Positions 1,742 to 64,000 of a DNA stretch of 64,000 nucleotides are shown one piece after another. Every line of letters begins with the position of its first letter. The first letter of the stretch is position 1. Below the pieces are notes generated by a model, which ran no database searches, was not told the DNA's origin, and saw only the letters and a list, made by a program, of their open reading frames with translations. A program made the position numbers and the translations under genes. The stretch is from Tetradesmus obliquus. Taxonomy: Eukaryota > Chlorophyta > Chlorophyceae > Sphaeropleales > Scenedesmaceae. The DNA lies in contig CP126207.1 of the NCBI GenBank assembly GCA_030272155.1, positions 372,001 through 436,000 of the forward strand. The letters are read 5' to 3'.

Positions 1742-4341
1742 ATGGCTGCGCAAGCGGAACCAACGCAGGCAGAGCGTGACGCTCAGAAGCTCTACTGGCT
1801 GGAGCACAGCTCGCAGCCAACTGTAGAGGCAATGATGCTCGACAGCAAGGCTGCAGAGATCGATCAGCTCGAACGGCCCGAGGTGAGACAGCTGCAGCAG
1901 TGACTGCTGCTGCCGTTGTATGCAGTCACTTCCTTGGGACTGTGTATGTGTTGAAACAAGCTGAAACCACGCAGCATCTCATACCGTTTTGGCAGCTGCT
2001 TAACTTCGCTGATCAGCGGATGCTCCAGCTCCTAGATAAGTCAACCAAGCTGGCGCAACAAGCAGTACACCTTCACCAGCACAACCGCCATTAGCGCAGC
2101 AGCTAGCAACCAGTGGCAAACATAAATTCCAGTCGTAGCTGTGCCCGACATGCACTGTTTGTTATAACTCGTTGCTAGCAGTGCTGTGGAACGCCACAGT
2201 AAGCTTGCGCACTGCGTGTGCTGAGCATTGCTCAGTCAGAGCAGCAGTCGCGTACCTGACAGTGCAGCAGCTGCAGCAGCCCTACACATACCATCTGCAC
2301 AAACAATTCTACAACCGAACCTTCTGCTTGTCCTGCAAGTGGCTGGCATTGTCAGCTGCAATGCACCACACGCGTTTCATGCTGGCACTCGCATTCATCA
2401 CAGGCTGCACCAATCTGCTGTGGGTGCGGAGGCTTTTACAGTGAAAGACTGGCGCAATGCGCAACGCGCTGCCGTCACTCTTTCCGACTCAGCAGTAGAC
2501 AATGTACGACTTGCATTCACCAGCTCAGCAATGACTGCATAGCCCCTCCAATGGACCCCTGCCCCCTCTCCAACAAGCACTCGAAGGCTCTTGGAGCACT
2601 TGCCTGCAGGCACCAGCCAACCGCGTGTCTGGTCTACTTTCGTGTTTGCAGCTGCTGACGGCGCTGCTGCTGCTGCTGCTGCTGCAGGTGCTGTCCACGC
2701 TGGGCAGTGTGGCAGGCAAGCGAGTGCTGGAGCTGGGTGCGGGCATCGGCCGGTTCACAGGGGAGCTCGCAAAGACAGGTGAGAACTTCACACTATGAAC
2801 AGATCGTACCTGCCGTAAACTTCAGTATGGAGTAGTCAGCAGTGTGGCAGGCAAGCGTGTGCTGGAGCTGGGTGCAGGCATCGGCCGGTTCACTGGCAAG
2901 TTGGCAAAGACAGGTGAGAACTTCACAGTACGAACAGATGGTACCTGCCGTGAACTTCAGTATGGAGTAGTCAGCAGTGTGGTAGGCAAGCGCGTGCTGG
3001 AGCTGGGTGAGGGGATTGGGAAGTCGACCAAGCATGCTGTGAACTTTGGTGTGAAGTGATCAGCAGTGTGGCAGGCAAGCGTGTGCTGGAGCTGGGTGCA
3101 GGCATCGACCGGTTCACTGGCGAGTTGGCAAAGACAGGTGAGAAGTTCACGCTGTGAAGTAAACCAAGCACGCTGCGAACTTCAGTATGGAGTAGTCAGT
3201 AGTGTGGCAGGCAAGCGTTTGCTGGAGCTGGGTGCAGACATCGGCCGGTTCACTGGGAAATTGGCAAAGACAGCTGAGGAGCTCACACTGCATATCTAAA
3301 ATGCTGTGACATGCTGACTGATGAGCTCACACTGTGAGCTTGACAGCGTCAAAAACAGCAATGTCTCCAGCGAGTGAAGCAGCAGCAGCAGCAGCAGCAG
3401 TGAGTGATTGGTGTTGTGCGCACGAGACAGGCGCATGGTAGTGCGCAACTGGGCATGCGCCATGCAGCAGTGCCATTGGCTCCTTTGGTGAAGACAAGCA
3501 CACTGCAGGCGACTCTTTTCTCTTGTAGGGTGGTCTAAACTTGTGAAGCTGGCGTCAGCAGCAGTGTTATGAAGCTCACCTGTGGCTGCTTGTTCTGTTG
3601 TATGCCATCTGATGTTTGACGTTCTGCTTCCTGTTTCATCTCTCTGCTGCAGCCAAGCACGTGGTGGCATGCGATTTCATAGAAGTGTGGATCGCTGCTG
3701 ACGCCCCCGCGTCCTGACATTGCATCAGCAACTTATGCTTGTCATGTATCTTTCTGTTTGTTACTTGCTGCAGCCAAGCATGTGATGGGGTGTGACTTCA
3801 TGGAAGTGTCAATCGCTGCTGACGCTTCTGCGGCCTGAACTTGCTCCACTAACTTATGCTTGTCATGTATCTTTATCTTTCTGTTTGTCTGCTGCAGCCA
3901 AGCACGTGATGGCGTGCGATTTCATGGAGGTGTCGATTGCTGAGAACCGGCGGCAGCACGAGGCGCTCGGCAACGTGTCGTTCATGGTGGCGGATGTGAC
4001 AGAGCTGGAGCAGGTGGGCATGTTATAACATGTTATGTGACATAGCATGTGGTAATCACCTGAAACAGCGGTTGTGAGAACCAGTGGCAGCACGCGGCGC
4101 TGGCTAACGTGTCATTGTTGGTGGCGGATGTGACAGAGCTAGAGCAGGTGGGCCGCGCATGTGATGACACACGTCAAGTAATATGTCATAACGACATTAC
4201 CATTGGCAGCAAACCTTGTCAGCGCATCTTGAAAAAGGTCTTGTAGCTGTTTCTGTGGCAGCAGTGCGCTGATGTCTGTCCAGGAGATGGTTTGCTGTGC
4301 AGTAGTGCGGCACGCTTTTGCGGCAGATGTGGTTGAAGCAG

Positions 4342-4373
<32 letters not shown>

Positions 4374-4677
4374 GAAGCTGGCGCGTATGATGTTGTGTTC
4401 AGCAACTGGCTGCTGATGTACCTCTCGGACGCAGAGGTGAAGGCGCTGGCAGCAAAGGTGCTGCGCTGGGTGAGTGACAGCGTTATAACATCCACGTGGC
4501 AATGATGTTGTTGCTTGGCAACACGGATCTGCGTGCAACACAGGGCAGCAGTTGCTGGGGCATCTGTGCAATGCTGAGATGTTTGCGCAAGCACGTTGAA
4601 TGTCATAGAAGTAGTATTAGGCGATCTTCCACTCATGCTGCAATCTGGCTGTGATTGCTTTGCCTCGCTTGCCTTGG

Positions 4678-4710
<33 letters not shown>

Positions 4711-5010
4711 AGCTGGCGCCAGGGGGTGTGCTGTTCTTTCGTGGAAGCTGCTTCAGGCCTTGCCGTAACTGACCTGTGCTGCTGCTGCTGCTGCTGCTGC
4801 TGCTCCTGCTGCTGCTGCTGCTGCTGCTGTTGCAGCTGGCGCCAGGGGGGGTGCTGTTCTTCCGTGAGAGCTGCTTCAGGCCTTGCCGTAACTGACCTGT
4901 GCTGCTGCTGTTGCTGCTGCTCCTGCTGCTGCTGCTGCTGTTGCAGCTGGCGCCAGGGGGTGTGCTGTTCTTCCGTGAGAGCTGCTTCAGGCCTTGCCGT
5001 GACTGACCTG

Positions 5011-5058
<48 letters not shown>

Positions 5059-5148
5059 TGCTGCTGCTGCTGCTGCTGTTGCAGCTGGCGCCAGGGGGTG
5101 TGCTGTTCTTCCGTGAGAGCTGCTTCAGGCCTTGCCGTGACTGACCTG

Positions 5149-5208
<60 letters not shown>

Positions 5209-7886
5209 TGCTGCTGCTGTTGCAGCTGGCGCCAGGGGGTGTGCTGTTCTTCCGTGAGAGCTGCTTCAGGCCCAGCGGGGACAGGCCACGCAAGGGCAAC
5301 CCCACGCACTACAGGTGCGGCAATCAAACTACGATGATATGAACATGTTTATGCTTTCTTTAGCACCCAGGATTCTACTGCTTGAAACTCAATCGCGGTG
5401 CGGCACCTCTGTATATCAACCTGGACGTCCAAGTCCACCAGCAGCCAGTTGAATGCATGTGCTGTTCTGTGTATGCACGATTTGTTGCAGGAACCCGCGC
5501 GATTACTTCGCCATGTTTGATGGCGCGGAGCTGGTCTCAGCTGACCCGTTCTTTGTGATAATCTTAATGGCATGTTGTCATTTTTCCTTTCCGGTATTTT
5601 GCAGGAACCCGCGCGATTACTTTGCCATGTTTGATGGCGCGGAGCTGGTCTCAGCTGACAGCAGCAGCAGTTGCCACCTGGAGCTGGTGTGCTGCAACAA
5701 CACTGTAACAGACTTGCTGCCTCCATGTCAACTTTTCCTGTGTTGCATTTTGCGGGAGGGTAGTATCCTGCAACAGATTGCCCTCAGAATCATTTATTGT
5801 TATCGCGTATCATGGGTTGTTATGCTGCTTCAGGAACCCGCGCGACTACTTCGCAATGTTTGATGGCGCAGAGCTGGTCTCAGCAGACAGCAGCAGCAGC
5901 TGCCACCTGCAGCTGGTGTGCTGCAAGTGCGTGGACACGTATGTCACCGTGAAGAAAAATCAGAACCAGATCTGCTGGAAGTTCCAGAAGGTGGGATTGA
6001 GATTCACACTGTGAAGTTTCCGCTGTGAATTTATCAGCCGCTACAATGCATGTGCTGCAAGTGCGTGGACACCTACGTCACCGTGAAGAATAATTAGGAA
6101 CCAGATCTGCTAGAAGTTCCAGAAGGTGAGAATATCTTGCTGTGAAGTTCGTATTTGAGGTTATCAGCAGCCGCCACCTGCAGCTGGTGTGTTGCAAGTG
6201 CGAGGACACCTACGTCACTCTGAAGAAGAACCAGAACCAGATCTCCTGGAAGTTCCAGCAGGTGAGCAGTGTGAACTTTGCACTGTGAAGTTTCCGCTGT
6301 GAAGTTCCCAGCAACGGTTGTGCATGGGCTGAAGTGCGTGGACACCTACATCACCGTGAAGAAGAACCAGAACCAGATCTGCTAGAAGTTCCAGAAGGTG
6401 AGAAGTTCTCACTGTGAGGTTCGTTTTTTGAAGTTTTCAGCAGCTGCCACCTGGAGCTGGTGTGCTGCAAATGCGTTGACATGTATGTCACCGTGAAAAA
6501 GAACCAGAACCAGATCTGCTGGAAGTTCCAGAAGGTGAGGAGCGTGAAATCACGCTATGAAGTTTGTGCTGTGAAGTTCTCAGCAACTGCAATGCATGCG
6601 CTGCAAGTGCGTTGACACATATGCCACCGTGGAGAAGAACCAGAACCAAATCTGCTCTGACGCCAGCTAACACCTGCTGCTGCTGCTGCTGCACCGCAGG
6701 TTGAAACGCCCCACCCGCGCCCGCCGCTGTACCGCACATTCCTGGACACACAGCAGTACAGTGACGCCAGCATTGCGCTTTATGAGGCGGTTTATGGCCG
6801 GGGTTTTGTGAGCCCTGGCGGGCAGCGGGTGTCGCAGCAGCTGCTGGACAGCCTTGAGCTGCAGCCGGGCATGACGCTGCTGGACGTAGGCTGCGGCATT
6901 GGAGGTGGGTGGGTTGTCTGTTTGTTCGTTGATTTTGTTGCGCTCGCTTCTGTGTTGTGTGCGACGACCAAACCGCGTTGTTGCTGATTACGTCTGTGGT
7001 GTTGGCTTTATGAATGGGGCTGTTTTGTGAGCCCTGGCGGTCAAGCAGTGTCTCAGCAGCTGCTGGATGGTCTGCGGCTGCAGCCTGGCATGGCACTGCT
7101 GGATGTGGGCTGCGGCATTGGAGGTGGGCTTATTGTTTTTTGTTGGTTGGTTTGTTGTGCTCGGCTTGTGTGTTGTGTGCGACGATGGAATCGCGTTGTT
7201 GCTGATTGCTCCTGTGGTGTTGGCTTTTTAAACGGGGCTTTTTTGTGAGCCCTGGCGGGCAGCGCGTGTCGCAGCAGCTGCTGGATGGCCTGCAGCTGCA
7301 GCCTGGCATGACACTGCTGGATGTGGGCTGCGGCATTGGAGGTGGGTTTGTGTTTTGATCTGTTTGGCTGTTTGTGCTGCTGTTTGATCGCCATCTGTTT
7401 TGAGGAAGTGGCTTTGCCCCTGGTGTGTGGGGCAGCGTTTTGGGTTGCAGCACGGTTTTGTGTGAGCCGCGGCGGTCAGCGTGTGTCTCAGCAGCTGCTG
7501 GATGGCCTTCAGCTGCAGCCTGGCATGACACTGCTGGACGTAGGCTGCGGCATTGGAGGTGGGTTTGTGTTTCGCGATCTGTTTGGCTGTGTGTGCTTTA
7601 TCTTCACAACGTGTGTCGAGGGAGTGGCTTTGTCCCTGGTGTGTGGGACAGCGTGTTCTATTTGCTTGAGGCAGCAGGGGCTGCTGTGAGCCCTGGCGGG
7701 CAGCGAGTGTCTCAGCAGCTGCTGGACGTAGGCTGCGGCATCGGAGGTGGGTTTGCGTGTTATGATCTGCTTGTTGGTTATAGGGCTAATTGCTGTTGGT
7801 GTGTGCACTGCTGGTGATGGCAGAGTGGCCCAGCTCCTGGTTACTCCTTCGGCTTTTTATTGTACGGATGACTGATCAACTGGTCA

Positions 7887-7929
<43 letters not shown>

Positions 7930-9783
7930 TGCAGGCAATGCATTCCTTGCGGCCGACACCTACGGCTGCCACGTGCACGGCATCGATCTGTCAGTTAACA
8001 TGATCCTCGTGGCAATCGAGCGCGCAGCAGCAGCCATCGCCAGCAGCCGCAGCAGCAGCGGCGGCGGCGCGGCAGCAGCAGCAGCAAACGGCAGCAGCAG
8101 CAGCAGCGGCAATGGTGTGATCAGCCCCCGGCAGCAGCAGCAGGTGCCACATGACGTTACGTTTGAGGTGGCTGATGTGCTAACAAGGGACTTCCAGCAA
8201 GGCAGCTTTAATGTTTGTGTGAGCAGGGACTCCCTGCTGCACGTGCAGGACAAGCAGGCGCTGTTCAGCAGGTGCGTGTCATACTGTTGCGTAACACAAA
8301 CTCGGACGCTTTGGCTGCTGCTGCTTCTGCTCTGCAAGGCGCTTCCGCTGGCAGGCGAGGCAACAGGCTGCAGCAAGCGCACTGACATCGCTGCTTACAT
8401 GGTGAAGCGTTGACCCTCGGTTGCTGCTGCTGCTGCTGTTCCTGCTGTCTACGGCGCCCGAAGCTGGTTTGCTGGCTCGAGCCAGGTAGCAAGCTGCTGC
8501 TGACAGACTGACAGTTACAGCGCGTGTCACTGCCGCTGCGTTTCACATCGCCGCAGGCTGTTCCGCTGGCTCAAGCCGGGAGGGCGGCTGCTCGTAACAG
8601 ACTACTGCCAGCCTTCCACAGCAGACTTCAGCCCAAGCCCGGGCTTTGCTGCCTACATTGCCAAGCACCGCTACAGCCTGCTGAGTGTGGAGGCGTATGG
8701 ACAGCAGCTGGCAGCAGCTGGCTTTGCAGAAGTGCAGGCAGAGGACTGTACGGCAGAGGTGCGTGTCTTAGTGTATTGTTTATGGGTTTTGGGGTGCAGG
8801 GTGCATGTTGCGTCAGATCGGCGTGTTGATTCTCTGTGGTAAAGGTTGCATTTTGGGGGGTTCAGCAGAGCAGCGTCGTGCTGGCTGGGCCTGTGGCCTC
8901 AGCGCTACAGCGCAGCTACAGCCTGCTGAGTGTGGAGGGCTACGGGCAGGCGCTGGCAACGGCTGGGTTTGGCGACGTGCAGGCAGAAGATTGCACAGCA
9001 GAGGTATGTATTCCTTGCGGTTTGTGGGGTGCAGGGTGCGTGTTGTAACGTCAGATCCGGCGTGTTGATTCTCTGTGGTGAAGGTTGCATGTTTTGGGGT
9101 TCAGCAGAGCCAGCGGCGTGCTGGGTGGCTCTGTGGCCTTATTGCTACAGCCTGCTGAGTGTGGAGGGCTATGGACAGCAGCTGGCGGCGGCTAGCTTTG
9201 GCGACGTGCAGGCAGAAAATTGCACGGCAGAGGTATGTCTTTAGTGTCCTATTCATGGGTTTTGGGGTGCAGGGTGCGTGTTTTGTCGCGTCTGATCGTG
9301 TGTTGATCGTTTGTGTTGAAGGTTGCATGTATCAGCAGAGCCAGCGGCGCGCGGGGTGGGTCTGTGGCCTCAGCGTATGTTGCCAAAAGCACCGCTACAG
9401 CCTGCTGAGTGTGGAGGGCTACGGGCAGCAGCAGTAGTTGCCAGTTCTAGCTCTTACCTGCGTTCGTGGTTGCGCTGCTGTTGCTGCTGCGGATGCTGGT
9501 TGTCTGTCAGCTGCACATTTACTGTCGCACCCCTAGTTTTCTCACAACAACATCACCGTGACATTCACTGCCGATCTGCTGCCTTGGACTGTGAACTTCG
9601 CAGCTGATCCCCACCTTGGAGGCTGAGCTGGCGGGGCTGCAGGCAGGGAAGGAAGAGTTCACGGCAAAGTTTTCGGCGGACGAGTATGAAGTTCTCACTT
9701 TACGGTGGCGGGAGAAGCTGGCTCGGGCACAGGCCGGGGAGCAGCGCTGGGGCAAGCTGACGGCAGTCAAGCCGCTGCAGTAA
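1742..9783 (+). CDS. PMT: phosphoethanolamine N-methyltransferase, two-domain plant type (10 exons)
   Basis: Predicted to methylate phosphoethanolamine three times with S-adenosylmethionine, giving phosphocholine for phosphatidylcholine synthesis, in the cytosol (family knowledge). Exons: 1742-1882, 2688-2778, 3898-4013, 4374-4469, 5226-5314, 5834-5990, 6700-6904, 7935-8271, 8557-8758 and 9604-9783. All junctions are GT-AG and phases agree throughout, giving 537 aa. Domain 1 has SAM motif [16 protein letters not shown] at residues 60-74, then NWLLMYLSD and [11 protein letters not shown]. Domain 2 has [10 protein letters not shown] at 290-299, then [16 protein letters not shown]. The end, [13 protein letters not shown], matches the conserved plant tail. 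Plant enzymes have about 490 aa; the excess is mainly a Ser/Ala/Gln insert at about 334-370 in exon 8. The start is the ATG at 1742 in the context ggaaaATGGCT. Almost every intron holds partial exon copies. The last exon lies inside unit 1 of the 3.83 kb array. Confidence 0.93.
2838..3275 (+). repeat. four downstream partial copies of PMT exon 2
   Basis: Copies at about 2838-2913, 2966-3033, 3060-3137 and 3196-3273 repeat the SAM motif I coding sequence ([14 protein letters not shown]) plus the following 5' splice site. They lack the exon start (VLSTLGS). The third position and a few codons have drifted. The last copy has lost its donor (gacagCTGAGG), and the second is degraded after ELGEG. 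They lie inside intron 2 and are not needed for the protein. Confidence 0.85.
3653..4147 (+). repeat. partial copies of PMT exon 3 on both sides of the exon
   Basis: Two upstream copies (about 3653-3705 and 3774-3828) carry the acceptor ctgcag and the exon start CCAAGCACGTG, then diverge after the codons for SIA. One downstream copy (about 4076-4147) carries the exon end (VADVTELEQ) and the donor gtggg. Only 3898-4013 has both ends. Confidence 0.85.
4677..5225 (+). repeat. four-step upstream ladder of PMT exon 5, each step with its own CTG tract and acceptor
   Basis: Acceptors ttgcag followed by CTGGCGCCAGGGGG occur at 4713, 4836, 4947 and 5085, and again at the true exon (5226). Each step is a CTG run of variable length plus about 50-55 bp of exon start, ending near gcttcaggcc and followed by ttgccgt(a/g)actgacctgtg. 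No step except the last continues to [15 protein letters not shown] and a donor. Long poly-Cys, poly-Ser and poly-Gln frames here are products of the triplet run. Confidence 0.9.
5491..5700 (+). repeat. two upstream partial copies of PMT exon 6
   Basis: Copies at 5491-5548 and 5605-5697 start after a good acceptor (ttgttgcag, ttttgcag) with GAACCCGCGCGATTAC and encode [18 protein letters not shown] before diverging. The complete exon is 5834-5990. Confidence 0.88.
6044..6675 (+). repeat. five downstream partial copies of PMT exon 6
   Basis: Copies end at 6125, 6261, 6397 and 6534, each at an AAG/CAG followed by gtgag; a fifth, truncated copy is at about 6590-6660. They repeat [20 protein letters not shown]. 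Two copies contain in-frame stops (atctgctag; aataattag), so they cannot serve as coding exons. They are separated by sequence rich in the motif tgtgaagttc. Confidence 0.88.
7022..7746 (+). repeat. four downstream partial copies of PMT exon 7
   Basis: Copies at about 7022-7123, 7242-7341, 7457-7558 and 7683-7746 repeat the 3' part of exon 7 ([13 protein letters not shown] to [10 protein letters not shown]) with the donor GGAG/gtggg. They lack the exon start [12 protein letters not shown]. The fourth has an internal deletion that removes [10 protein letters not shown]. The copied intron parts between them are also similar to one another. Confidence 0.9.
8905..9436 (+). repeat. three downstream partial copies of PMT exon 9
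   Basis: Copies at about 8905-9003 and 9143-9232 repeat [11 protein letters not shown] to QAEDCTAE and end in GAG/gtatgt. A third (about 9388-9436) stops at GYGQQQ followed by TAG. The third belongs to unit 1 of the 3.83 kb array and is therefore repeated near 13215, 17045 and 20875. Confidence 0.88.
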
Positions 9784-9855
9784 TGCTTATGCTGGGTTAC
9801 TGCGTTTGTGGACACTGCTGCGCTGCATCCGTGGTAGTTGCTGCGTGTCTGCGCA

Positions 9856-10190
9856 GTGCAGCAGCAGCGCTGGGGCAAGCTGACAGCAGTCGAGCCGCTG
9901 CAGTCATCTTTATGCTGGATTACTGCCTTCTTGGACACTGCTGCTGCTGCTGGTGCTGCTGCTGCTGCTGCTAGCACCGCATCAGTGGTAGTTGGTGCGT
10001 ATCGGCGCAGCGCAGCAGCGGCTCTGGGGGCAAGCTGACAGCTGTCAAGCCGCTGCAGTAATCACTATGCTGGATTACTGCGTTTGTGGACACTGCTGCG
10101 CTGCATCAGCGGCAGTTGGTGCGTGTCAGCGCAGTGCAGCAGCGGCTCTGGGGGCAAGCTGACAGCAGTCAAGCCGCTGCGGTGAGCAGC
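9856..10190 (+). repeat. three partial copies of the PMT terminal exon end
   Basis: Copies of the last codons (GCAGCGCTGGGGCAAGCTGAC to CCGCTGCAG) occur at about 9856-9906, 10004-10063 and 10134-10183. The third ends in CGGTGAGC in place of the stop. The set is repeated in every array unit. Confidence 0.85.
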
Positions 10191-10199
10191 AGTACTGTG

Positions 10200-12100
10200 C
10201 TGTGACACAGCAGACACACAGCAGCAGCTTTGGGCGTAAGGTGGATGCTGCTGAAACGCTGCAGGGCGCTGTATGCACTATAGCTGGTGCTGCTGCTCTC
10301 TGTACAGCACACACCAAGGGTGCAGCATCGGGGCAGCAAGTGCTGCTGCAGTAAGGGCTCCTGCTGCTGCTGCTGCTGCGTTCTTGTCACAGTTTTTAAG
10401 GGTGTTGGGTAGGCAGCAGCGCAGCGCGGCATTAGTAGCTGCTGGGGCAGGTTGTGGCAGCAGCTAGGGATAGCATGTGTTCGGATCGTTGTGCTGCATG
10501 TGACTAAGTTGTGTTAGGCACAGTGCTGTCATAGCAAGCACCTGCTAGACAAGAAAGGAGCTGGTTCAGCTTGCCAAGTTCATTTTGGCACGCTGTTGTT
10601 GGAGCGATGTTTGTACAGCTGTGGTTATGTGTCCGGGTTTGATGTGCCATTTGGGAAGCTGCGCACCTGCGCAGAGCTATTTTGCAGTGCCTAGGATGGG
10701 GTAACCCTGACCCGTGCGGCAGTAGTATCGAACACTGGAACAGGTTGCATCAGCAGCCAGGATATCATAGGGTTGGATATCTAGCGGCAGTAGCACTACG
10801 CTTGCCTGTATCACCGCAGTAGCCTCGAAGCGGTCTTGGCAAATGATTGTCGTGAGTTTAGTAGCATTGCCCTGTCTGTTTAGAGAGCTTTCTGATCAGG
10901 AGGGTAGGGTTTTGAGTTTGTGGTGTAGGTGGTGGCTGGGGTGGAGCAGGGCGGCGCAGTTGTTGGAGTCTTTCTGGACACTCAGCTTGCAGTCCTGCAG
11001 GCGCAGAGCAACCAGCGAGCAACTGGTTCATGAACGCAGTGCAGGTCTTGTGGTTGTTGCTTGCTTGCACAACGTCGTTGGATCAGTTGATAGCGAAAAA
11101 AGGAGGTGTTGGGGTGGTTGGGTTGGCTGCACACTGCAATGCAGTGGGGGCAGTGCACTTGCTTGCTGGCTGTGCTCTAGTGCATGCAATGGCTACTGCA
11201 AGCGCTGTACTGTGTGCAGCTGCATCCGCGGCAGCAGCAGCAGGTCTGCGACTGCTGAATCTCCTCACACTGGAATGTGCGGCATGCATGCTACACAGCA
11301 AGCTGCAGCTGCAAGTGCTGCCTTTCAAAGGCAGTCAAAGTAATAGTCAAAGTTTGACTATGGCCGCTCACATGCAGCAGCCATATGCATGCCGCATGCT
11401 GCTCACATCAGTTTGCTGTACAGCTGGCGCATCTTTGCCCAGCGTTGACCAGCGCATGTTTGACTGCGGCTTCGGCAGGCAGTTGGCGGCACGTGTCAGG
11501 TTTTTTATTTCGGTCACATGCTGGCAGGTTTGACTACTTGTAGCATTAGTATGTAGTATTCAGATACCTTTATGATGAGATGTTCAGGGGATGTGCACGA
11601 GCCAGGGATATTTATGGCAGCGCGCTGTCTGCGACGCTTCTGACTGCACCTTTCAAGTCCCTCAAACATCTTGGATCCTTGAAGTAGCATTGGTAACCTC
11701 GCCGGCATCGGATTGCACCTAAGCTGAGCTGTGTTTGCCGGCAGCGCACGGTATGCGATGCTTCTGACTGCACCGTTCAAGTTTTTCAAACATCTTGGAC
11801 TAGCTTCAGTAACCTCGCCGGCTCTCAACTGCACTCAGGCTGAGCTGTGTTTTGTATTGTTTTGACCAACATTTGACCAGCCGATATGGCCGCGGTGGCG
11901 TTGGCCTGTTCCTATGACTGAACGGGTAACTCGGTGATGATGATTATGTTTGACCGGCGTTGACCAACGTTTGACCGCCAGCTGCTTGGCGCCAAACTTG
12001 CGCAGTTGCATACTACATGCTGTATACGCCCTACGTATAGCATCTCACTGTGAATGTATGGTTACAGCTTCTGCAAAACTCACAGCTCATGCACAGCAAG
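10200..12100. other. spacer between PMT and SET tails inside unit 1
   Basis: I see no gene in this part of the unit. It holds a direct repeat of about 115-125 bp (about 11609-11733 and 11741-11852, both containing ttctgactgcacc and aacctcgccggc) and a cluster of TTGACC motifs at 11439-11972. It presumably supplies the 3' UTRs of both genes. The same sequence recurs in units 2-4 at offsets of +3827, +7657 and +11487. Confidence 0.55.
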
Positions 12101-12129
12101 CAAGCACAGGGTTTACAGGGTTGCTGATG

Positions 12130-12730
12130 CAGGTTCTAGACCCATCCCATCACCTTCGACGTGCGCTGCAGCCAGCTCCCAATGCTGCTGCCGCCGCCGC
12201 TGCTGCCAGCATTCCCAACCTCCTCAACCAAGCGTGCCGCTGCTGCTGCCACCGCAGCCTTGTGCTGCTGAGCAATAACACCACCATATGGGGCGCGGTT
12301 GCCGAGGCGGATGACAAGGTATGGCTTACAAGAAGACTATTTTTATCATCATTACCATCGCCGTTGGCTGCAATATAAATTTGGTACAACGTGCAAGCAG
12401 GTCAATCATTTCAAGTATAATGCAGCATAATGAGTACTCACATGGCTAGAAGTGGTCCCCCAAAAGGCCACCATGGCTGCTGAACCTCGCATTGCAAGCA
12501 TGTGCAGCTCCTGCAATGACATCTAGCTGTACACAGCACCCCTCTGACTGGCAGTCTGCAGTGTGCTTTCGCATAGTGTGATGCCTGCAAGTTGTCAAAA
12601 CAACGAGCCAGGCTCGGCTGCGCTCATGCGGGGTTCATGCCCATCCCAACAATCTGCCAGACGTCCGAGACGTCCGCTGCAGCCAGCTGCCGATGCTGCT
12701 GCCGCTGCTGCCAGCATTCCCAACCTCCTC
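12130..12730 (-). pseudogene. two decayed copies of the SET-gene last exon in unit 1
   Basis: On the minus strand, about 12310-12136 reads [18 protein letters not shown] then IGSWLQRTSKVMGWV and TAG. About 12725-12630 reads a shorter version ending GRLLGWA and TGA. Both resemble the end of the SET protein (RTSRLLGWV, stop). Neither has an identifiable upstream exon, so I treat them as partial duplicates carried along in the unit. Confidence 0.65.
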
Positions 12731-12790
12731 ATGTTGCGTTGTGCTTGTGCAATGTGTGCTTCCTGCAACGTCTTACACATCATGCGGGGT

Positions 12791-12974
12791 TCACACCCAC
12801 CCCAACAACCTAGACGTCCGCTGCAGCCAGCTGCCAATGCTGCTGCTGCTGCTGCTGCTGCCAGCACCCCCGACCTCCTCAGCAACGCGTGCTGCTGCTG
12901 CTGCCACCGCAGCCTTGCGCTGCTGCCGCCACTGCAGCAGCAGCTGCAGCAGCGCGCCGGAGCCTTCATTGCCG

Positions 12975-13021
<47 letters not shown>

Positions 13022-13050
13022 GTCACCAGCCTCCAGATCAGCAGCCAGCT
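12791..13050 (-). pseudogene. orphan 3' end of the SET gene in unit 1
   Basis: It matches 24281-24534, the part of the SET last exon inside the array. It reads LAADLEAGD, a poly-Ala run, GALLQLLLQW, and so on to RTSRLLGWV and TGA. Upstream on the minus strand it is cut at the unit junction and abuts PMT sequence of unit 2, so it has no acceptor or preceding exon. Confidence 0.85.
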
Positions 13051-13430
13051 ATATGTCTTGTATGTCTTTAGTGTCCTATTCATGGGTTTTGGGGTGCAGG
13101 GTGCGTGTTTTGTCGCGTCTGATCGTGTGTTGATCGTTTGTGTTGAAGGTTGCATGTATCAGCAGAGCCAGCGGCGCGCGGGGTGGGTCTGTGGCCTCAG
13201 CGTATGTTGCCAAAAGCACCGCTACAGCCTGCTGAGTGTGGAGGGCTACGGGCAGCAGCAGTAGTTGCCAGTTCTAGCTCTTACCTGCGTTCGTGGTTGC
13301 GCTGCTGTTGCTGCTGCGGATGCTGGTTGTCTGTCAGCTGCACATTTACTGTCGCACCCCTAGTTTTCTCACAACAACATCACCGTGACATTCACTGCCG
13401 ATCTGCTGCCTTGGACTGTGAACTTCGCAG

Positions 13431-13610
13431 CTGATCCCCACCTTGGAGGCTGAGCTGGCGGGGCTGCAGGCAGGGAAGGAAGAGTTCACGGCAAAGTTTT
13501 CGGCGGACGAGTATGAAGTTCTCACTTTACGGTGGCGGGAGAAGCTGGCTCGGGCACAGGCCGGGGAGCAGCGCTGGGGCAAGCTGACGGCAGTCAAGCC
13601 GCTGCAGTAA
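13431..13610 (+). pseudogene. orphan PMT terminal exon in unit 2
   Basis: A copy of 9604-9783 ([12 protein letters not shown] to LTAVKPLQ, stop) with intact frame and acceptor ttcgcag. The upstream sequence is the SET tail of unit 1, not PMT exon 9, so it cannot complete a PMT transcript unless transcription and splicing skip over whole units. Confidence 0.88.
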
Positions 13611-16600: not shown

Positions 16601-16620
16601 TCTTACACATCATGCGGGGT

Positions 16621-16804
16621 TCACACCCACCCCAACAACCTAGACGTCCGCTGCAGCCAGCTGCCAATGCTGCTGCTGCTGCTGCTGCTGCCAGCACCCC
16701 CGACCTCCTCAGCAACGCGTGCTGCTGCTGCTGCCACCGCAGCCTTGCGCTGCTGCCGCCACTGCAGCAGCAGCTGCAGCAGCGCGCCGGAGCCTTCATT
16801 GCCG

Positions 16805-16851
<47 letters not shown>

Positions 16852-16880
16852 GTCACCAGCCTCCAGATCAGCAGCCAGCT
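16621..16880 (-). pseudogene. orphan 3' end of the SET gene in unit 2
   Basis: The same sequence as at 12791-13050, cut at the unit 2/unit 3 junction. Confidence 0.85.
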
Positions 16881-20400: not shown

Positions 20401-20450
20401 GTGCTTGTGCAATGTGTGCTTCCTGCAACGTCTTACACATCATGCGGGGT

Positions 20451-20634: not shown

Positions 20635-20681
<47 letters not shown>

Positions 20682-42582: not shown

Positions 42583-42625
<43 letters not shown>

Positions 42626-42698: not shown

Positions 42699-42729
<31 letters not shown>

Positions 42730-46183: not shown

Positions 46184-46236
<53 letters not shown>

Positions 46237-50136: not shown

Positions 50137-50505
50137 AGCACCATACAATGCACCTCCCGGCGCGCCTGGGGTTGCGCAGCAAGGCGCAGCAGGGTATCAG
50201 CAGTACTACCAACCCCAGCAGCAGCAGCACTGGCAGCAGCAGCAGCAGCAGTACAGCCAGCAGCAGCAGTACATGCCACACCCGCAGCCGCCGGAGCAGC
50301 AGCAGCAGCAGCCCTGGCAGCAGCAGCAGCAGCAGCAGCAGCTGGCGGTGCCTCAAGGGCCGCCGTCTGGCCCTGCCAATGCAGCTGCTGCTGCTGCTGC
50401 GCTGCCGCCTTACATGGCAATGATGATGCAGCGATCCGGCTCAGGAAGCCACCACCAGCAGCAGCCTCACATGGCAACGATGATGCAGCGATCTGGCTCA
50501 GGAAG

Positions 50506-50536
<31 letters not shown>

Positions 50537-50874: not shown

Positions 50875-51215
50875 CAGTAGGGGGGGTGTGAGCCTGCAGG
50901 GCGGCGGCAGCAGCCGCAGCAACACCTGCCCCGTGTGCAGGGTGCCTGTGGTGCAGCACATCGCGGGGTGTACATAACGTGACGTTGCAATGGCAGCAGC
51001 AGCAGGGGCATGCACTGAAATCCATGCGCAGCTTGCCCAACTGCTGTTTTGAATGTGCATAGATGCGCAGCGTGCTGCTGCTGCCCTGCAAGCACCTGTC
51101 CCTGTGTGAGGGCTGCAGCATGAGCCTGCAGGGAGGGGGCGGCAGCCGCAGCAACACCTGCCCGGTGTGCAGGGTGCCTGTGGTGCAGCACATTGCAGGG
51201 GTACATGACTTGAAC
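50875..51215 (+). pseudogene. two downstream partial copies of the RING-encoding 3' end
   Basis: About 50881-50975 repeats the end of the RING (SLQGGGSSRSNTCPVCRVPV) but shifts frame before the stop. About 51065-51206 is longer (RSVLLLPCKHLSLCEGC to VVQHIAGV) and differs from the gene at only a few bases. Neither has the first zinc-binding CxxC pair. These are tail copies of the final exon, so here the duplicated edge is the transcript end rather than a donor. Confidence 0.85.
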
Positions 51216-54095: not shown

Positions 54096-57000
54096 TGCCG
54101 CCGCCGCTGCTGCTGCTGCTGCATGTACAGGCGACGCTGCTGCCATTGATGCCATCACCTTGCTACAAAAACACCCTGAGTATAGCTGTGTTGTTGCTGT
54201 TGCCAGTGCTGGTGCTGCTACATATCACCCATGCTGCCAGTCCCAGACACTTCCATGACTGCCAACTACAGACACTGCTGTGGCGCTTGCCCCTGCTGCT
54301 GCCGCTGCCACTGCTGCTGTTGCTGCTGCTGCCGCTGCTGCCTGCTGCTGCTGCCGCTGCTGCCGCTGCTGCCTGCTGCTGCTGCTGTAGGTGCTGCACC
54401 TGCTGAGGGCGTTGCAGCTGCAGCGAGCAACACTGGGAGGACCTTGCCCACGCGGGGCCGTGGCGTGGGGGTGAGTGTGTGGCTGCTGCAGTCGTTGCTC
54501 TGTTTGTGGCTTCTGTAGTCGTCGTTCTTGTTGTTGCTTCTGTGGTGTGCGTCCAAGCTCAGCTGGACTATGTAAGACATGTGGGTGAGTCAGGAGCTGG
54601 CCAACCCGGGGCCGTGGCGTGGGGGTGCGAGTGTGGTGCTGTAGTCGCTGTTCTTGTGGCTGTTTCTGCTACCCTCTTCAAACTCCGCTGCAGCAAGCAA
54701 GCTTGCTTAAGCAGCACTGATGCAAGGAGGCCTGGCTCACCCGGGGCCGCAACATTGGAGCCAGTGCGTGGCTGCTGCTGCAGCTCCGAGTCACAGCTCC
54801 AATGCATCTGAAGCCGGTGGTGTACCGCACGTTGCTCTTTCCGCTGCCCTGCACGCCATGTGCCTCGTGCCTGCCTGCAAGCTGCAGAAGCAGCATCAGC
54901 TGCAGCCACTGCTTACAATGTACTGCTGTTGTACTGCTCTCAAGTGCTCTCAAGTGCTTTCCTTCCCCTTGCCCTTTTCTCTGTTGCGTGCCCTGCAGGC
55001 TGTCTGCCGTACCTGGAGGGTGCCGCCACGCACCTTCGACAGATTCAGCTGCCGCGCCGGGCTGACCTGCTGCGCCAACGCCCCCCAGGTCAGTGCAGAA
55101 GCACGATAATGTGCACAACTTGATGCAATACATTGTGATGTTTGGCTTGATCTATGGCTTGTTTTATGGCTATAGTTAAGGTTTGGCAGGTTCAGCTGCC
55201 GCGCCGGCCTGACCTGCTGCGCCAACGCCCCCCAGGTCAGTGCAGAAGCAGAGTATTGTGCACAACTTGATGCAATACATTGTGATGTTTGGCTTGATCT
55301 GCGGCTGCTTGTTTTATGACTATGATTGTTATTTGACAGTTCCAGCTGCCGTGCTGGCCTGACCTGCTGCGCAAACGCCCCGCAGGTCAGTGTGTGAGGA
55401 TTAACGCTCTCAATGTTGTTGCAGTGCATCTTGTTGTGTGGACTGAGTTTTGGCTTAGTATGTGGCTGAGTATATATGGTGGCCGGCCTGAGCTGCTGTG
55501 CCAACATGTTGTGCAACCAACATATCATGCAGAACTTCATGCACGCCACTGTGTAGCTTGATGCATGGCTTTGTTGGTGGTTTGACAAGTTTGCCTCCTG
55601 TGCTGGCCTGGCCTCCTCGCAAGTGGCTATGTCAATGCATTACATCATGCTATGTGGCTTGATGTATCAATGCGATGCATTGCCGGCCTGCAGGCCTGTC
55701 TTGCTGCGCCTGCAGCACCCAGGTCAGTTTGGGAGCAGCACATTCTGCAGGCACTGATGCGATGCACCCTGCTGTGTGACGTGCTGTGTGCACGGCCTTC
55801 CCAAAGCGTGCTGGCAGGAGTGATCATGATGGCAGTTGCTGGTGATCTGACGTGCTGCTTTTGCTGTTTTCTGCACTGGGTTCTCCCCAAGTGCTGGCAG
55901 CGGTGCTTAGCTGCCGGCTGCAGCCTCCCAAGGAAGCATGTATACACAGCTTAAGGGTGCTCAAACCTGCTGCTTTTGCCTTGTTTGCATGCACTGCAGT
56001 GGGTCTTTCCCAAGAGTGCTGGCGCTGTGACTGCTGCAGCTTCCACCAACACCAACAACATTGGCAGTTAGCAGCATGAAGTGGACAGCTCGAACAATTT
56101 CACTATGGTGAGAGTGCCATGCAGGATGCAGTGTAGGCATCATGTTGCAGTGCAGGCATCATGTTGCAGATACACAGTGCTAGGCTTGCGTAGACCTTGT
56201 CATGTTGCAGTGCAGGCATTATGTTGCAGATACACAGTGCTAGGCTTGCGTAGACCTTCCTTGCCACTGCGTCACGGCATTTCATCGGCGATGCTCATGT
56301 GACATGCAATTGATGTTGCATCCTTGATGGTTGAAAGTGCAGCTGCAGATGTCTGGAGAGCCATGTAAAGCTAGTTGGGGTGCGGGCATTCATCATTTGC
56401 TGCTGCTGTGTAGGATTAGTTACCAAACTCCTGAGGCACAAGCATGACCTGCAATCCTACACACACTCATTTGCTGCCGCTGTTGCTCAGAGAAGGTAGA
56501 GGCAGCAGGTAGCAGCAGGCAGCGCTAAACGTGCTTCTCTCTGTTCCTCTGCATTGTCGACATGTATATACACAGTACTGCGCCATACTGCTGGCACGCA
56601 TTGACAAAATGTGCACGCTGCTGCTGCTGCTGCTGCTGTTGCTGCTGTGCGTGTGTGTGGTATGCGCAGGGTGTCTGCGCCCAGCAGTGCCCACCTGGTG
56701 AAAGCACTCCCTCTGTGAAATAACAATAATAATAAAATAATGATAATATTGATTTTTTAAAATAATTATAGTAATAATAACAACAGTAATAACAAGATTA
56801 GAGATGTCTTGATGCATCATACTCAACCCAACTTGAGGCCGCAAGCATGCTGTCATGTATGCACAGTGGGTTGGATCAACTTGCATTACCAGGAGTCATA
56901 AATCAACATTAACAACACCAACCCCTGCCTGGCCGCCCGCTTACTTCCTGTGCAACCCCTGCCGTTGCTTCCAACCGCAAATTGCCACCTTGCAGCCTGC

Positions 57001-57822
57001 AACACCCTGCTGACAGCCTTCACCGGCGCCAGCACCCCTGCAGTGCAACCGCCCACTGTTCTGCCGCACTCGCACCATATAGTGTTGGCCGACCCGCACT
57101 CACTCCCTCTTTTGATTTCGGCATATCCCCCGCCCCCATCCTGCAGCCTGCAACACCCTGCTGACGGCTTTCACCGGCGCCAACACCCCTGCCAACGCAC
57201 TGCTCATGTCGACCCTTGTCGCCGACGTCACCGTGATCCAAGCGCTGATCAATGCGAACAGACCTTTTGCCAACAAAGAGGCAGAGCTGAGGACAAAATG
57301 GGCCTCGTACGGAGCAGACGCCGCATCGATCAGGATTACGCCGTTCCGCCCACCGGCCGGAGAAAAAGCTCCGGTGACGGTGGGCGCGATGTTCACGGCC
57401 GGATCGATGAGCTACGTGATCGTCGGTTGGTTCATCGGTTTCAACAATGGCGCTGCAGATGAAGCCCTAGTGCCCTTCGCGGTGAGTGCGGCTCTTTTTT
57501 TGTTGTTATAGTATTGGCGTTTTGATACAACGGGGTGCTGTCACAAACATGGCTCGGTGACTGCTTGTACCGGCCACGGGCGGCGGCGGTCAGCCGCGCT
57601 AAAAAAAGATACAGGGCTGGCCGACCTTGTGACGTTCATGGTCCGTCCTTGTTTGCTTTCAGTGTGACGCTTTGATTGACGGGGTTCAGCTGTTACAAAT
57701 ATGCTATGGTGACGCCTGGTAATGGTCGCGCGGCGTATTGAAGGCGGGTGTGGCGGTAGGCGCAGCGTTCAGTGCGGGCCTGACCAACATTATGTTGTAA
57801 ATGCCAGAGCCAATTTCAACAG

Positions 57823-60802: not shown

Positions 60803-63546
60803 ATGCTGGCTTCACAAAACAGGCTGCTGTCCGGCAGCAGGATTGCTTCATTCAAGCAGCCGCAGCCATTCGTTGCAGCAGGCCGCAGCAGGTGCCAGCC
60901 CACAATCGTGGCCAAGGCGAAGCTCGCTCCTCTGGTGGACGCTATTAAGGCCGACCAGATTCGCACAGACCTGCCACCGGTAAGTTGGAAAACGTTCTTT
61001 GTATTGCGAACACGGCAGGCAGCAGCACGAGTGGCAGAATACGCAGGCCAGCAGCTTGTGGGCAGGAGAGCGCAGACACCAGCTCCCGAGCCCATGCAGC
61101 ACTTCTTTGATTGCTGAGGCTGGATTTACTAGCCATTGGTCCTGCAGGACCGGTATAGCTTCATGCAGAAGGGAGCAAGCAGCAGTGCAGCAGGCACAGC
61201 TGCAGCAGCACTGGCTGCTGCAGCCTGATAGCCAGTGATGGGTCATGCCAGCTGGTATGCCAGCCAAATGGGCAGCTGCTATAACTTGTGGCAACTGCAG
61301 AGGGTATGAATCTATGTAATCTCTCTAACGCCTCAGCAGGCCGGAGTTTGAACAGGAGTTAACTGCAGGTGCAGTTGCTGTCTGCCGCTGTTCAGCATGT
61401 TCTGTTGCACCAGCAGTTGCGGCAGCAGCGGGTACAGCAGCAGCTGCAGACCAGAGCACAGCTGGCAGATGCTCAGCTTAACAACAGCAACAGCGTGGGT
61501 TGACTGATGTGGTTACAGCAGGTAGCAGAGCCTAGCATCACTTGCGGCAGCCAAGCAGTGCGACAGAGCAGCCAGGTGTTTCACAAGTTGTGCGACCACA
61601 CATCAATCGCGAAACTACAGGCCAGCAAGTCAGCGGCAGCAGCAGCAGGCCAGCAGCAGCATGGCAGAAACGAAATGAATAGGCAGGGTCAAGAGACACA
61701 CATTTTGCCGTCTGGGCATGTGCAGCAGCTGCTGCAGCAGTTGAACAGCTGCACCGCATCGCTTGACACGCAGTGTTGCCTCCCTGATGGCACTTGTGTG
61801 CTGCACAACCTGACACCATACTCACCCCACTGCTGCTGCTGCTGCTGCTGCAGGTGAACATCGGTGACACGGTGCGCCTGGGCCTGCTGGTGCAGGAAGG
61901 CAAGGGCAAGACACGCACACAGGTGGGCGGCTTGCAGGAAACAGGCTTACATGAGGGCTTGCAGGAAACATCCTGCAGGACAGCTTGCTAGGCAGCTTGC
62001 AGGACAGCTTGCAGGACAGCTGGCCGGACAGCTGGCTGGGCAAGCTGGCAGGGCAGCTCGCAGACATTGTTGAGGCGGGTGCAGCGCAGCGAGGAGAGGC
62101 GCGGCAGCATCAGCAGTGCGAACGCGATGTGGCGTCACAAGATACAGTGGTGGGCTGGGGTTTGGTAGATACAGCTTGCAGGACGCAAGCCTTGCCCAGC
62201 ACGGGAGGGCGAGGCCGCTCACACGGACAGCGGTAGCTGGCAGCAAGCTGTAGTGCCCGCGCTTGGCTACTGCTAAGGCTTGCAAAGTAAATAACTTAAC
62301 AGGGCTGCTTGCAGGACATTGGCCCAGCACAGCAGGGGTAGCCGCGCACACAGGCAGCTGGCAGCAATCTGCAACTCCTGCAAGTTTAATAGCAGCATGG
62401 CACATGCAGGAAGAAGTACAGGCAGCATGCAGAGGTGAGCGGCCTTCCAGGAAACTTGCAGTAAACTTGCTGGAAGTTGTGTTTTGTCTCTTTCGCGGCT
62501 GCTGCTAGCAGTAGCAGCTGCAGGGCAACGGCCGCTGTACGTTGCGCCTGGCTTTCCCTCACACTGCTGCTGCTGCTGCTGCTGCTTTTCACATGCAGCG
62601 CCTGGAGGGTGTTGTCATTGCGCAGTCAGGCAGCGGCAGCAACATCACCATCACAGTGCGCCGCGTGTTCCAGGTGAGCCCCGGGCTGCACATCGTTACT
62701 GTGTTATTTTGCACAGCGTTACTGTTTTTCTGAAGTAGAGTGACTCGGCATGCGTCGTTGCTGGAGGTAATTGATGACAAGTGGCGGCACTGCTGTCACA
62801 TTGTGCTGTGTGTTCCGCAGTGCCACAGGGATGTCCTTCACTGTGATACAGTACCATGCCAGCAAGACAGGCGCTGTGGCAACACTCAAACAATTCAGCC
62901 AGCTGACTGTTGTCCTGTTTGACGTGTGTAGCACAAGCCTGCACAATGATGCTTCAGCAGCGTTCGCGCGTCCTTGACAGCATGCGTCCATCATTATCAT
63001 GGTACGGAGCAAGTCACATCTGAGACACCATGTGTTACTTTGTCTGTTTTAACGCAGGGTGTGGGTGTGGAGATGAACTTCTTCCTGAACAGTCCAGTGC
63101 TGGGTGGGCTGGAGGTGCTGCGCCGCGCGAAGGTGGGCAGAATTGAATTGCAGAAATGACACCTGTTTGAATAGAAAGTGACGCTGAGCATTGCAGTTTG
63201 AACAGCCCAGTGCTGGGTGGCCTGGAGGTGCTGCGCCGCGCAAAGGTGGGCAGATCTAATAAACGGAAATGACACATTTTGAATCAGAAGTGACAGCTGA
63301 GCATGGGTGTTCTAAACAGCCCAGTGCCCGGCGGGCTGGAGGTGCTGCGCCGTGCAAAGGTGGACAGATTTGAATGCAGTAATAAAATGATAAATGTGAC
63401 AGCTGAGCATCACGATGGAAATAGCCCTGTGCTGGGTGGGCTGGAGGTGCTACGCGCGAAGGCGGGCATAATAATGCGGAAACAACACACGCGACAAGTT
63501 CACGTTTTGCCATACCAACCTTTTTTGTTGCTGCTGCTGCTGCTGC

Positions 63547-63577
<31 letters not shown>

Positions 63578-63650
63578 TGACCGCACCGGCAAGTCTGCCA
63601 GGCTCAAGGAGCTCTTCGTGAGGAAGGAGAAGGCAGCCGCCGCAAACTGA
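60803..63650 (+). CDS. RPL19: plastid ribosomal protein bL19, nuclear-encoded (5 exons, 165 aa)
   Basis: Large-subunit protein of the chloroplast 70S ribosome, located at the subunit interface in bacterial homologues. Exons: 60803-60979, 61854-61922, 62599-62673, 63058-63132 and 63549-63650; all are phase 0, giving 165 aa. Residues 1 to about 40 form a transit peptide rich in Ser, Arg and Ala. The bL19 core follows: [60 protein letters not shown] and the family signature [20 protein letters not shown]. Bacterial bL19 is about 115 aa, so only the transit peptide and a short tail ([10 protein letters not shown]) are extra. Four of the five exons encode short core segments with exact phase 0 borders. 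The ATG at 60803 is the first in this frame after an upstream AG-rich leader. Confidence 0.96.
61930..62065. repeat. minisatellite gcttgcaggacagctggc in bL19 intron 2
   Basis: Seven or more irregular copies of a unit of 8-18 bp (ttgcaggacagc, ggccggacagctggc). It keeps an open frame (QLAGQLAGQ) that is only a product of the repeat. Confidence 0.85.
63195..63466 (+). repeat. three downstream copies of bL19 exon 4
   Basis: Copies at about 63197-63244, 63313-63360 and 63424-63463 read [15 protein letters not shown] and end at gtgggc, gtggac and gcgggc respectively. They lack the exon start GVGVEMNFF. The last has a deleted codon part and a lost donor, so decay increases away from the true exon. 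Confidence 0.9.
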
Positions 63651-64000
63651 GAAGTTCACGGCGTGAAGCTGTGAAGTTCACGGTGTGCAGCTGTGCACTT
63701 CGTACTGTGAAGTTGCTGGGACCTGTGTGCCAAGAGCGAGCCTGCCAGTCACAGGGAGCTCTCGGTGTGAAGAAGGACGAGGCAGCCGCCGCAGACTGAG
63801 AAGTTCACAGTCCGCTGTGTGACGCTGAGAATTTCACAGTTGGAAGTTCACAGTGGGAAGTGTGAGTGCTGTTGGGCACAAGGGTGCTGTGCCACACTCA
63901 GCGAGCAGCAGCAGCAGCAGCACTTACAGGAGGTGTGTTTGCCGAGCACATCAGAGACACCTGCTAGCATTGGGGTTTAGTTGACTTGGGGCTTTAGGTG
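63651..64000. other. 3' flank of bL19 gene with repeated gaagttcac words and an exon-tail copy
   Basis: About 63762-63806 repeats the end of the last exon (aaggacgaggcagccgccgc, stop, agaagttcac). The flank has at least six gaagttcac/gtgaagttc words. No TGTAA signal is visible before the window ends, and no further gene is seen. Confidence 0.6.

Follow-up and report, generated by a model that had tools for sequence, protein, structure and literature searches.

The window analysed here is a stretch of 64,000 nucleotides of Tetradesmus obliquus DNA, C17:372001-436000 of an assembly of 104.66 Mb in 17 contigs. It holds six genes, encoding phosphoethanolamine N-methyltransferase (PEAMT), a SET-like protein (on the minus strand), a secreted-type protein, an ankyrin + RING protein, a lipase-type protein and the plastid ribosomal protein bL19. 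Introns of these genes contain partial copies of neighbouring exons, and the polarity of these exon-edge copies is real: fragments carrying the acceptor and the start of an exon lie upstream of it and fragments carrying its end and donor lie downstream, with few exceptions.

PEAMT (1742-9783, plus strand, as are all features below unless stated otherwise) was spliced by hand into 10 coding exons: 1742-1882, 2688-2778, 3898-4013, 4374-4469, 5226-5314, 5834-5990, 6700-6904, 7935-8271, 8557-8758 and 9604-9783. The spliced protein is 100% identical (537/537 amino acids) to the deposited T. obliquus protein OEZ86_007114 and matches plant PEAMT structures (PDB 5wp5, E 1e-152). In a relative, Scenedesmus sp. 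NREL 46B-D3, PEAMT is 83% identical. Since the deposited protein equals the exon chain, no PEAMT fragment is present in the protein. Exon 2688-2778 is followed by three copies of its end and donor (2839-2913, 3063-3137, 3201-3273) and by one copy with neither splice site (2974-3016). Exon 3898-4013 has two acceptor + start copies upstream (3653-3697, 3774-3818) and, downstream, an end + donor copy (4075-4147) whose homology ends 6 bp beyond the donor. Three acceptor + start copies made of CTG-rich units precede exon 5226-5314 (4836-4882, 4947-4993, 5085-5131). Upstream of exon 5834-5990 lie start copies with homology ending 3 bp beyond the acceptor (5491-5545, 5605-5697); downstream of it are four end + donor copies (6051-6125, 6165-6261, 6325-6397, 6438-6534), and a further copy (6597-6656) has neither site. 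The end and donor of exon 6700-6904 recur downstream at 7022-7123, 7241-7341, 7458-7558 and 7718-7746, those of exon 8557-8758 at 8909-9003 and 9144-9232, and each of these two exons also has a copy with neither site (7685-7727 and 9380-9432, respectively). Downstream of the terminal exon 9604-9783, copies of its end and stop-codon region (9863-10183) have the same layout, with no splice site involved.

The last PEAMT exon and the region downstream of it also form a 3.83-kb unit, present four times at 99.9% identity (window 9233-24534); this fourfold repeat may be an assembly error, and the gene is still intact because the unit begins in the last intron. Long CTG or CAG runs, which may help slippage or breakage, are seen just upstream of acceptors and within duplicated units (e.g. 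4678-5228, 42475-42730, 46085-46350).

The other genes show the same arrangement. The SET, ankyrin and lipase labels are our presumption, from recognisable motifs plus weak matches, and protein searches with the SET and ankyrin genes returned no recognisable deposited models of T. obliquus. The SET-domain-like gene (25145-31153, minus strand; weak SETD6 match, E 0.075) has exons at 27177-27254, 27701-27820, 28629-28768 and 29703-29849 and weaker ones at 25247-25349, 26798-26965, 30341-30450 and 31037-31153. On that strand, acceptor copies lie upstream (27402-27451, 27907-27961, 28019-28082, 28833-28893, 29896-29976, 25542-25600) and donor copies downstream (28236-28336, 28356-28419, 28473-28535, 29217-29285, 29365-29433, 29534-29602, 26532-26568, 25145-25205) of their exons. 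The sole wrong-sided fragment of the window is found here, a copy of the end of exon 28629-28768 that lies upstream of it (28994-29057, minus strand). Exon 36030-36130 has an acceptor + start copy upstream (35918-35953; homology ends 6 bp beyond the acceptor), and exon 36539-36713 of the secreted-type protein has an acceptor copy upstream (36412-36453) and donor copies downstream (36781-36872, 36946-37031). The ankyrin-type exon 41599-41716 lies between three acceptor copies (41214-41275, 41342-41402, 41473-41533) and four donor copies (41915-41976, 42065-42125, 42217-42276, 42366-42426), and the ankyrin-type exon 42732-42931 between acceptor copies at 42512-42575 and 42628-42691 and a donor copy at 43040-43139. 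Donor copies of exon 44069-44305 follow at 44419-44520 and 44647-44749. The ankyrin-type exon 45134-45269 has one acceptor copy upstream (45014-45065) and four donor copies downstream (45382-45462, 45575-45655, 45768-45848, 45979-46053); exon 46342-46488 has acceptor copies upstream (46121-46171, 46239-46289) and a donor copy downstream (46555-46599). The RING-coding end of exon 50139-50841, which seems to terminate at a stop codon directly after 50841, is copied downstream (50889-50978, 51065-51209). The Q-rich part of the same gene contains a coding duplication at 50407-50522, with a 57-bp unit (a multiple of three) and 94% matches. In the lipase-type gene (best PDB match E 0.29, a weak label), the weakly supported exons 54391-54470 and 54999-55088 have donor copies downstream (54592-54624, and 55187-55235 and 55332-55385, respectively), and exon 57147-57481 has an acceptor + start copy upstream (56996-57041). 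Finally, exon 63058-63132 of bL19 (PDB 28jw_P, E 6e-39) is followed by donor copies at 63199-63245, 63312-63359 and 63420-63461, and its terminal exon 63549-63650 by a copy of the end and stop region at 63736-63799.

Exons were predicted with a self-trained two-strand gene model, seeded with PEAMT exons and long reading frames. The model initially called many fragments exons, and predicted exons that were truncated copies of a better exon were therefore blocked (39 in the window), after which 8/10 PEAMT exons were predicted exactly. For the window, 47 exons in the six genes were curated by hand, fragment-like or unsupported predictions being removed and some ends reset; this curation favours the side rule, since fragment-like predicted exons were dropped. 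Repeats were found by self-comparison with simple repeats masked. Copies were classed according to the splice site that the match crosses (acceptor, donor, both or neither), and a copy ending within 8 bp of a splice site was given the type of that site. Copies were counted up to 1.5 kb from the exon (3 kb for the window list given next), and the large array at 9784-24534 was excluded from counts.

The window list comprises 84 copies, of which 77 lie outside coding exons, in line with the more than 70 fragments that a reading of the sequence alone (the sequence-only reading) had counted. Its polarity was confirmed: all 24 acceptor + start copies are upstream and none downstream, and 48 of the 49 end + donor or end + stop copies are downstream and one upstream. 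The remaining 4 copies carry neither site, and noncoding sequence of the window contains no whole-exon copy. With uncurated window models and strict typing, copies in noncoding sequence still divide into 51 right-sided and 2 wrong-sided (acceptor, 17 upstream and 1 downstream; donor, 34 downstream and 1 upstream), with 7 whole-exon copies and 5 with neither site. Copies inside another predicted exon are less clean (acceptor, 4 upstream and 2 downstream; donor, 4 downstream and 3 upstream).

The same comparison was extended to three further regions of this one genome, taken from C1 (200 kb), C9 (50 kb) and C5 (50 kb, region X), which together with the window (W) make 364 kb. The four regions hold 555 exons, mostly predicted; in C1, C9 and X, weak exons copying a stronger one were dropped by script. 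After filtering, acceptor-type copies are 66 upstream and 2 downstream, and donor-type copies 102 downstream and 3 upstream. Among 199 noncoding copies, 168 are right-sided and 5 wrong-sided (binomial P 2e-43, a nominal value because copies of one array are not independent). A further 13 carry neither site and 13 are whole exons, 11 of the latter deriving from exons with a model score below 25. With coding repeats also present, the word "always" in the sequence-only reading goes too far. Near pairs are overwhelmingly direct after filters (direct:inverted 144:4, 178:6, 45:7 and 95:6 in the four regions). Without filters, C9 gives 23 right-sided and 2 wrong-sided copies (acceptor, 14 upstream and 2 downstream; donor, 9 downstream and none upstream) and C1 only 10 and 7 (acceptor, 4 upstream and 2 downstream; donor, 6 downstream and 5 upstream).

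Six of the 7 wrong-sided copies in C1, 4 donor-type and 2 acceptor-type, come from one gene with repeated whole exons. In this gene, C1:3084213-3087224, 231-bp whole exons are repeated (region 84213-84443, 85931-86161, 86484-86714) and further copies were not called as exons. Whole-exon duplication thus occurs in T. obliquus as well. C1 also contains two long reading frames with many coding repeats (region 126324-132176 and 133067-136747; C1:3126324-3136747), with units of 117-129 bp that are 71-79% alike; the repeat shift is a multiple of three in 63/100 and 22/49 matches of the two frames, where one third is expected.

Fragments are seen in all four regions and their distribution is patchy. 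Exons carrying them number 26/47 in W, 28/75 in X, 14/93 in C9 and 17/340 in C1. The window is therefore at the rich end, and to call the process a dominant genome-wide mode, as had been done from the window, overstates its reach. The mean intron of T. obliquus, at 462 bp, is the longest of four Sphaeropleales (the others at 230, 302 and 284 bp) and exceeds those of four other green algae (230, 302, 284 and 270 bp), according to PMC5966456.

The side rule follows geometrically from every local direct duplication that has one exonic and one intronic end. When the duplicated stretch reaches from exon into intron and the copy keeps its orientation, a fragment can lie only on the side of the splice site that it carries. 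The rule thus shows local direct duplication and is, by itself, no evidence of selection. Nor must a fragment span a splice site, as the sequence-only reading had it: copies of the terminal exons of PEAMT and bL19, and apparently of the ankyrin/RING gene, span the stop codon instead. As local duplication forces the rule, the more interesting question is why duplications anchor in exons.

To see where the duplications fall, near direct repeats spaced 60-350 bp apart were grouped into 119 clusters. Ninety-nine of these join an exon and noncoding sequence, 5 are intron-only, 7 coding-coding, 4 fragment-only and 4 wholly or partly intergenic. Of size-matched random blocks placed in the same genes, on present introns with their copies included, 60% are confined to introns, 20% cross an edge and 20% are exonic. 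By our own ratio from these clusters, exon-including duplications are ~30-60 times commoner, relative to intron-only ones, than under random placement. The curated window has 34 exon + noncoding clusters, 2 fragment-only, 3 intergenic or partly so, and none intron-only. Multi-copy arrays behave similarly when the expectation is computed on sequence with surplus copies removed (the array at 9784-24534 being kept in this placement): 43 carry one exon edge, with 16.4 expected, and 7 are intron-only, with 25.2 expected. By coordinates, 3 of these 7 lie within fragment sets of a neighbouring exon and 1 in a coding repeat. The expected share depends on intron length, so that short ancestral introns remain a way out for the arrays: at 150-200 bp, the expected intron-only share is 8-24%, and 7/50 is then not unusual (P 0.19 at 20%). 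Arrays wholly inside an exon number 0/54 in W, C9 and X, with ~6.4 expected at random, and this lack suggests selection. Selection cannot, however, explain why duplications confined to introns, expected to be harmless and the commonest kind, are nearly absent. Their faster loss is not an obvious cause either, because the intron halves of exon-edge copies, where aligned, retain an average identity of 85%.

The duplicated unit has a median length of 125.5 bp (quartiles 111-141; 68 arrays), with an exon part of 27-99 bp and an intron part of 33-154 bp (5-95% of 69 units), and units are slightly centred on the splice site (Kolmogorov-Smirnov P 0.014). Over 107 pairs, the identity is 0.849 in the aligned intron half and 0.905 in the exon half, by our estimate roughly the ratio expected if the parent is constrained and its copy is not. 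At least 15 bp of intron are included in 104/163 copies. Two ideas about the inner ends were rejected. A shared exon breakpoint of acceptor- and donor-side copies is seen within 6 bp in 5/17 exons (P 0.045 for uniform and 0.30 for permuted positions). Fossil small exons, left by cDNA-templated exon extension, predict AG or GT at the inner ends of copies, and these are not above controls; in copies ending at the splice site, they number 11/40 against 18.8 for donor-type and 6/19 against 7.7 for acceptor-type copies. Usable junctions for microhomology were just 17, with ends blurred by CTG runs, and CTG/CAG at inner ends is weakly enriched (69/120, with 46% expected; P 0.006). Rotating the PEAMT exons against the gene's 7 adjacent arrays gave 7/7, with 5.5 expected (P 0.14), a test made uninformative by the long arrays.

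Frameshifts are present in 26/161 copies and stops in 11/161. The fragments accordingly look unneeded, and they are skipped in PEAMT, the one gene in which this could be checked. Exon definition would, in the sequence-only reading, select the right copy. The parent splice dinucleotide is kept in 57/61 acceptor-type and 80/94 donor-type aligned fragments, more often than neighbouring intron dinucleotides (0.75 and 0.66; P 2e-4 and 4e-5, respectively). This retention is, by our estimate, about that of one-sided drift, and thus gives no sign that decoy sites were purged.

The copies lie close by, on one side and in the same orientation, and almost all are anchored in an exon. The best explanation, for which belief and doubt are about evenly balanced, is that introns grow by recurrent local direct duplication of a ~125-bp segment straddling a single coding-exon edge, that these duplications are most plausibly a side effect of repair, and that selection filters the events. 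Staggered breaks or nicks would be repaired by fill-in and joining, or a broken end would copy back from its own flank; fill-in at staggered breaks is an established source of small tandem duplications (PMC8355091). The break would be the trigger, one end of the event would tend to fall in an exon, and selection would retain only those events that leave a whole exon and the adjacent splice-site core. With a first copy present, unequal exchange between copies would make arrays, and the intron half of the unit would decay faster than the exon half. Copies spanning a stop codon show that splicing itself is not required.

Several observations weigh against this explanation. Single copies (n = 62) are mostly spaced from their parent: 3 are adjacent within 15 bp, 7 overlap and 52 are spaced, four of these by more than 500 bp. 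Over 102 exon sides, the nearest copy is adjacent in 3 cases, spaced in 60 and overlapping, in arrays, in 39. In 59/163 copies, homology ends close to the splice site, at most 7 bp before reaching it and at most 14 bp beyond it (most commonly 3-8 bp beyond), and such an end is found in 49/98 outermost copies against 10/65 inner copies (42/98 outermost copies end 1-12 bp beyond the splice site). In this class, the exon half is as similar as in copies running on, and the splice dinucleotide is present in 18/19 acceptor-type and 34/40 donor-type copies. Its flanks are slightly more alike than same-neighbourhood controls (P 3e-5), so that part of the class is old units with a decayed intron half; the residual similarity exceeds the control by at least 3 points in 17/51 (3 lie below) and is not visible in most, and 8/50 flanks exceed the 97.5% point of cross-gene controls. 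Selection gives a reason for the sharp lower limit at the splice site, since the splice-site core must be part of the copied block if the intact exon is to keep it, and not for the pile-up there. This model accounts for the near absence of intron-only events only if breaks prefer exons. C1 has 7 exon-internal arrays, with 2.6 expected (five in two long repeat-rich reading frames), and arrays with several exon edges number 4, with 0.5 expected. In 40 arrays with at least 2 fragments, changes confined to a single fragment are 45% synonymous (144/321) against ~30% for random change, those confined to the real exon being 78% synonymous (57/73). Outside PEAMT and bL19, the exon boundaries are our own predictions.

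The regularity described by the sequence-only reading is thus true and unusual, and the cause that it gave is partly supported. A tandem duplication accounts for the side rule, in that a local direct duplication with one exon end predicts it, and fits poorly with the spacers of more than 15 bp beside 52/62 single copies and with the copies that stop near the splice site, themselves partly a matter of intron-half decay. Selection for one intact exon agrees with W, C9 and X, where exon-internal arrays are missing, and not with C1, where they are in excess; as a cause of the pattern it is further weakened by the geometric nature of the rule and by the scarcity of intron-only events (clusters, 5 against 99; arrays, 7 against 43).

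The spacing of single copies would be natural if they arose by templated insertion, a repair-mediated duplication by synthesis-dependent annealing in which a broken intron end invades an exon close by, is extended past the splice site by outward copying, and rejoins, so that a piece of 40-100 bp is pasted 50-150 bp away. Copying towards the break would yield the side rule, and events of this kind, four with partial exon/intron donors, are described in vertebrates (PMC2671141). Three of three spacers searched in the 104.7-Mb assembly had no match outside their own locus or array, in a search that skips very common words; this favours templated insertion and led us to reject the idea that spacers were copied from another intron. 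Within the 364 kb, 29/55 spacers and 46/59 outer flanks have no second match, and 26/55 spacers have some second match, partly in their own array and partly elsewhere, mostly short. The spacer adjoining a fragment at X (C5) region 29537-29787 is a dispersed repeat, matching C9 region 2989-3061 and X 6743-6831 on the other strand. However, templated insertion should commonly produce copies without any splice site, and these are 13/199 of the noncoding copies; PMC2671141 includes an opposite-orientation example, whereas inverted pairs are rare here; and spaced and adjacent copies are similarly spaced, so that spacers may be decayed tandem units. We hold templated insertion as a tentative possibility.

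Copying tied to splicing or RNA, from a template (RNA or a chromatin state) that has splice sites as its limits, would suit the 59/163 copies that end near a splice site, the 42/98 outermost copies that end just past it, and the preponderance of exon-anchored over intron-only clusters (99 against 5). Against it, some copies span a stop codon, 104/163 run at least 15 bp into the intron and part of the others retain intron similarity; no exon-exon junction was noticed in the copies, no search aimed at such junctions having been made. We find it quite improbable. That duplication is aimed at exons in a wider sense, by exon-preferring breaks or by RNA- or chromatin-bounded copying that pastes exon edges outward as a major source of the unusually long introns, is rather unlikely. 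Fragments could also be kept for a function, as alternative or decoy exons or recursive splice points, exon-edge copies persisting while intron-only copies decay. The retention of splice dinucleotides (57/61 and 80/94) above that of neighbouring ones, the raised synonymous share and an exon half that outlives the intron half agree with this, yet such retention fits one-sided drift beside a constrained parent (~0.87 and 0.82 by our estimate), frameshifts and stops are found, and the deposited PEAMT protein uses no fragment. Copying at different times can explain the raised synonymous share, and the stop-creating changes (7/321 of those confined to a fragment) fit that mixture; weak constraint or gene conversion could also raise it. 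A functional role is accordingly very doubtful. An artefact of the gene model, by which one of several coding-looking repeats is taken for an exon and the others for "fragments", is the least probable of all, although 39 predictions in the window needed blocking as truncated copies. It is mostly refuted for PEAMT, where the deposited protein and PDB homologues bear out the exons, and for bL19, where PDB 28jw does so; both genes show the pattern and lack a wrong-sided copy, and the 34 exon + noncoding clusters of the curated window stand against no intron-only one.

Intron growth is usually attributed to mobile elements or to old, unreadable sequence. In T. obliquus many of its steps are legible, each added piece revealing its source exon and side. 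Its introns are thus a good place to study intron growth, exon-edge copies lying nearly always on the outward-copied side of the splice site, and they offer a natural test of how splicing picks one exon among up to six copies of one splice site (exon 23659-23820, region X). None of the titles and abstract openings found by our literature search describes exon-edge copies lying on one side as a frequent origin of intron sequence, subscription papers being largely outside the scope of the search.

Several known systems come close. Whole-exon tandem duplication, as in mutually exclusive exons, is a local exon duplication inside a gene, whereas in T. obliquus the copies are incomplete, with one splice site missing; whole exons make up 13/199 of the noncoding copies and none of those in the curated window. 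Introner elements repeatedly create intron sequence in algae; the units here, in contrast, resemble their own neighbouring exon, and the spacers searched (3/3, a small sample) are unmatched outside their own locus or array. Small tandem duplications linked to CST/Pol alpha-primase and end joining (PMC8355091) are short, direct, local and free of mobile elements, as here. They are insertions of <100 bp, whereas the units here are ~125 bp, exon-edge-anchored and mostly spaced when single. The same orientation is found here (direct 144/178/45/95, inverted 4/6/7/6), but adjacency is rare among single copies (3/62), a verdict softened by intron-half decay. Repair-mediated duplication by proximal capture in vertebrates likewise gives copies of sequence lying within a few hundred bp, including partial exon + intron (PMC2671141), and a nearby template with a spaced copy is also seen here (52/62). 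The table of that source has 4 partial exon/intron donors, whereas here exon edges are the main class, one-sided and in the same orientation. Intron gain by tandem duplication of an AGGT-containing segment (PMC3443670, PMC4974935) changes intron content and leaves the protein unchanged, as here; there (PMC3443670) a new intron arises inside an exon, whereas in T. obliquus existing introns lengthen and keep extra copies of their splice sites.

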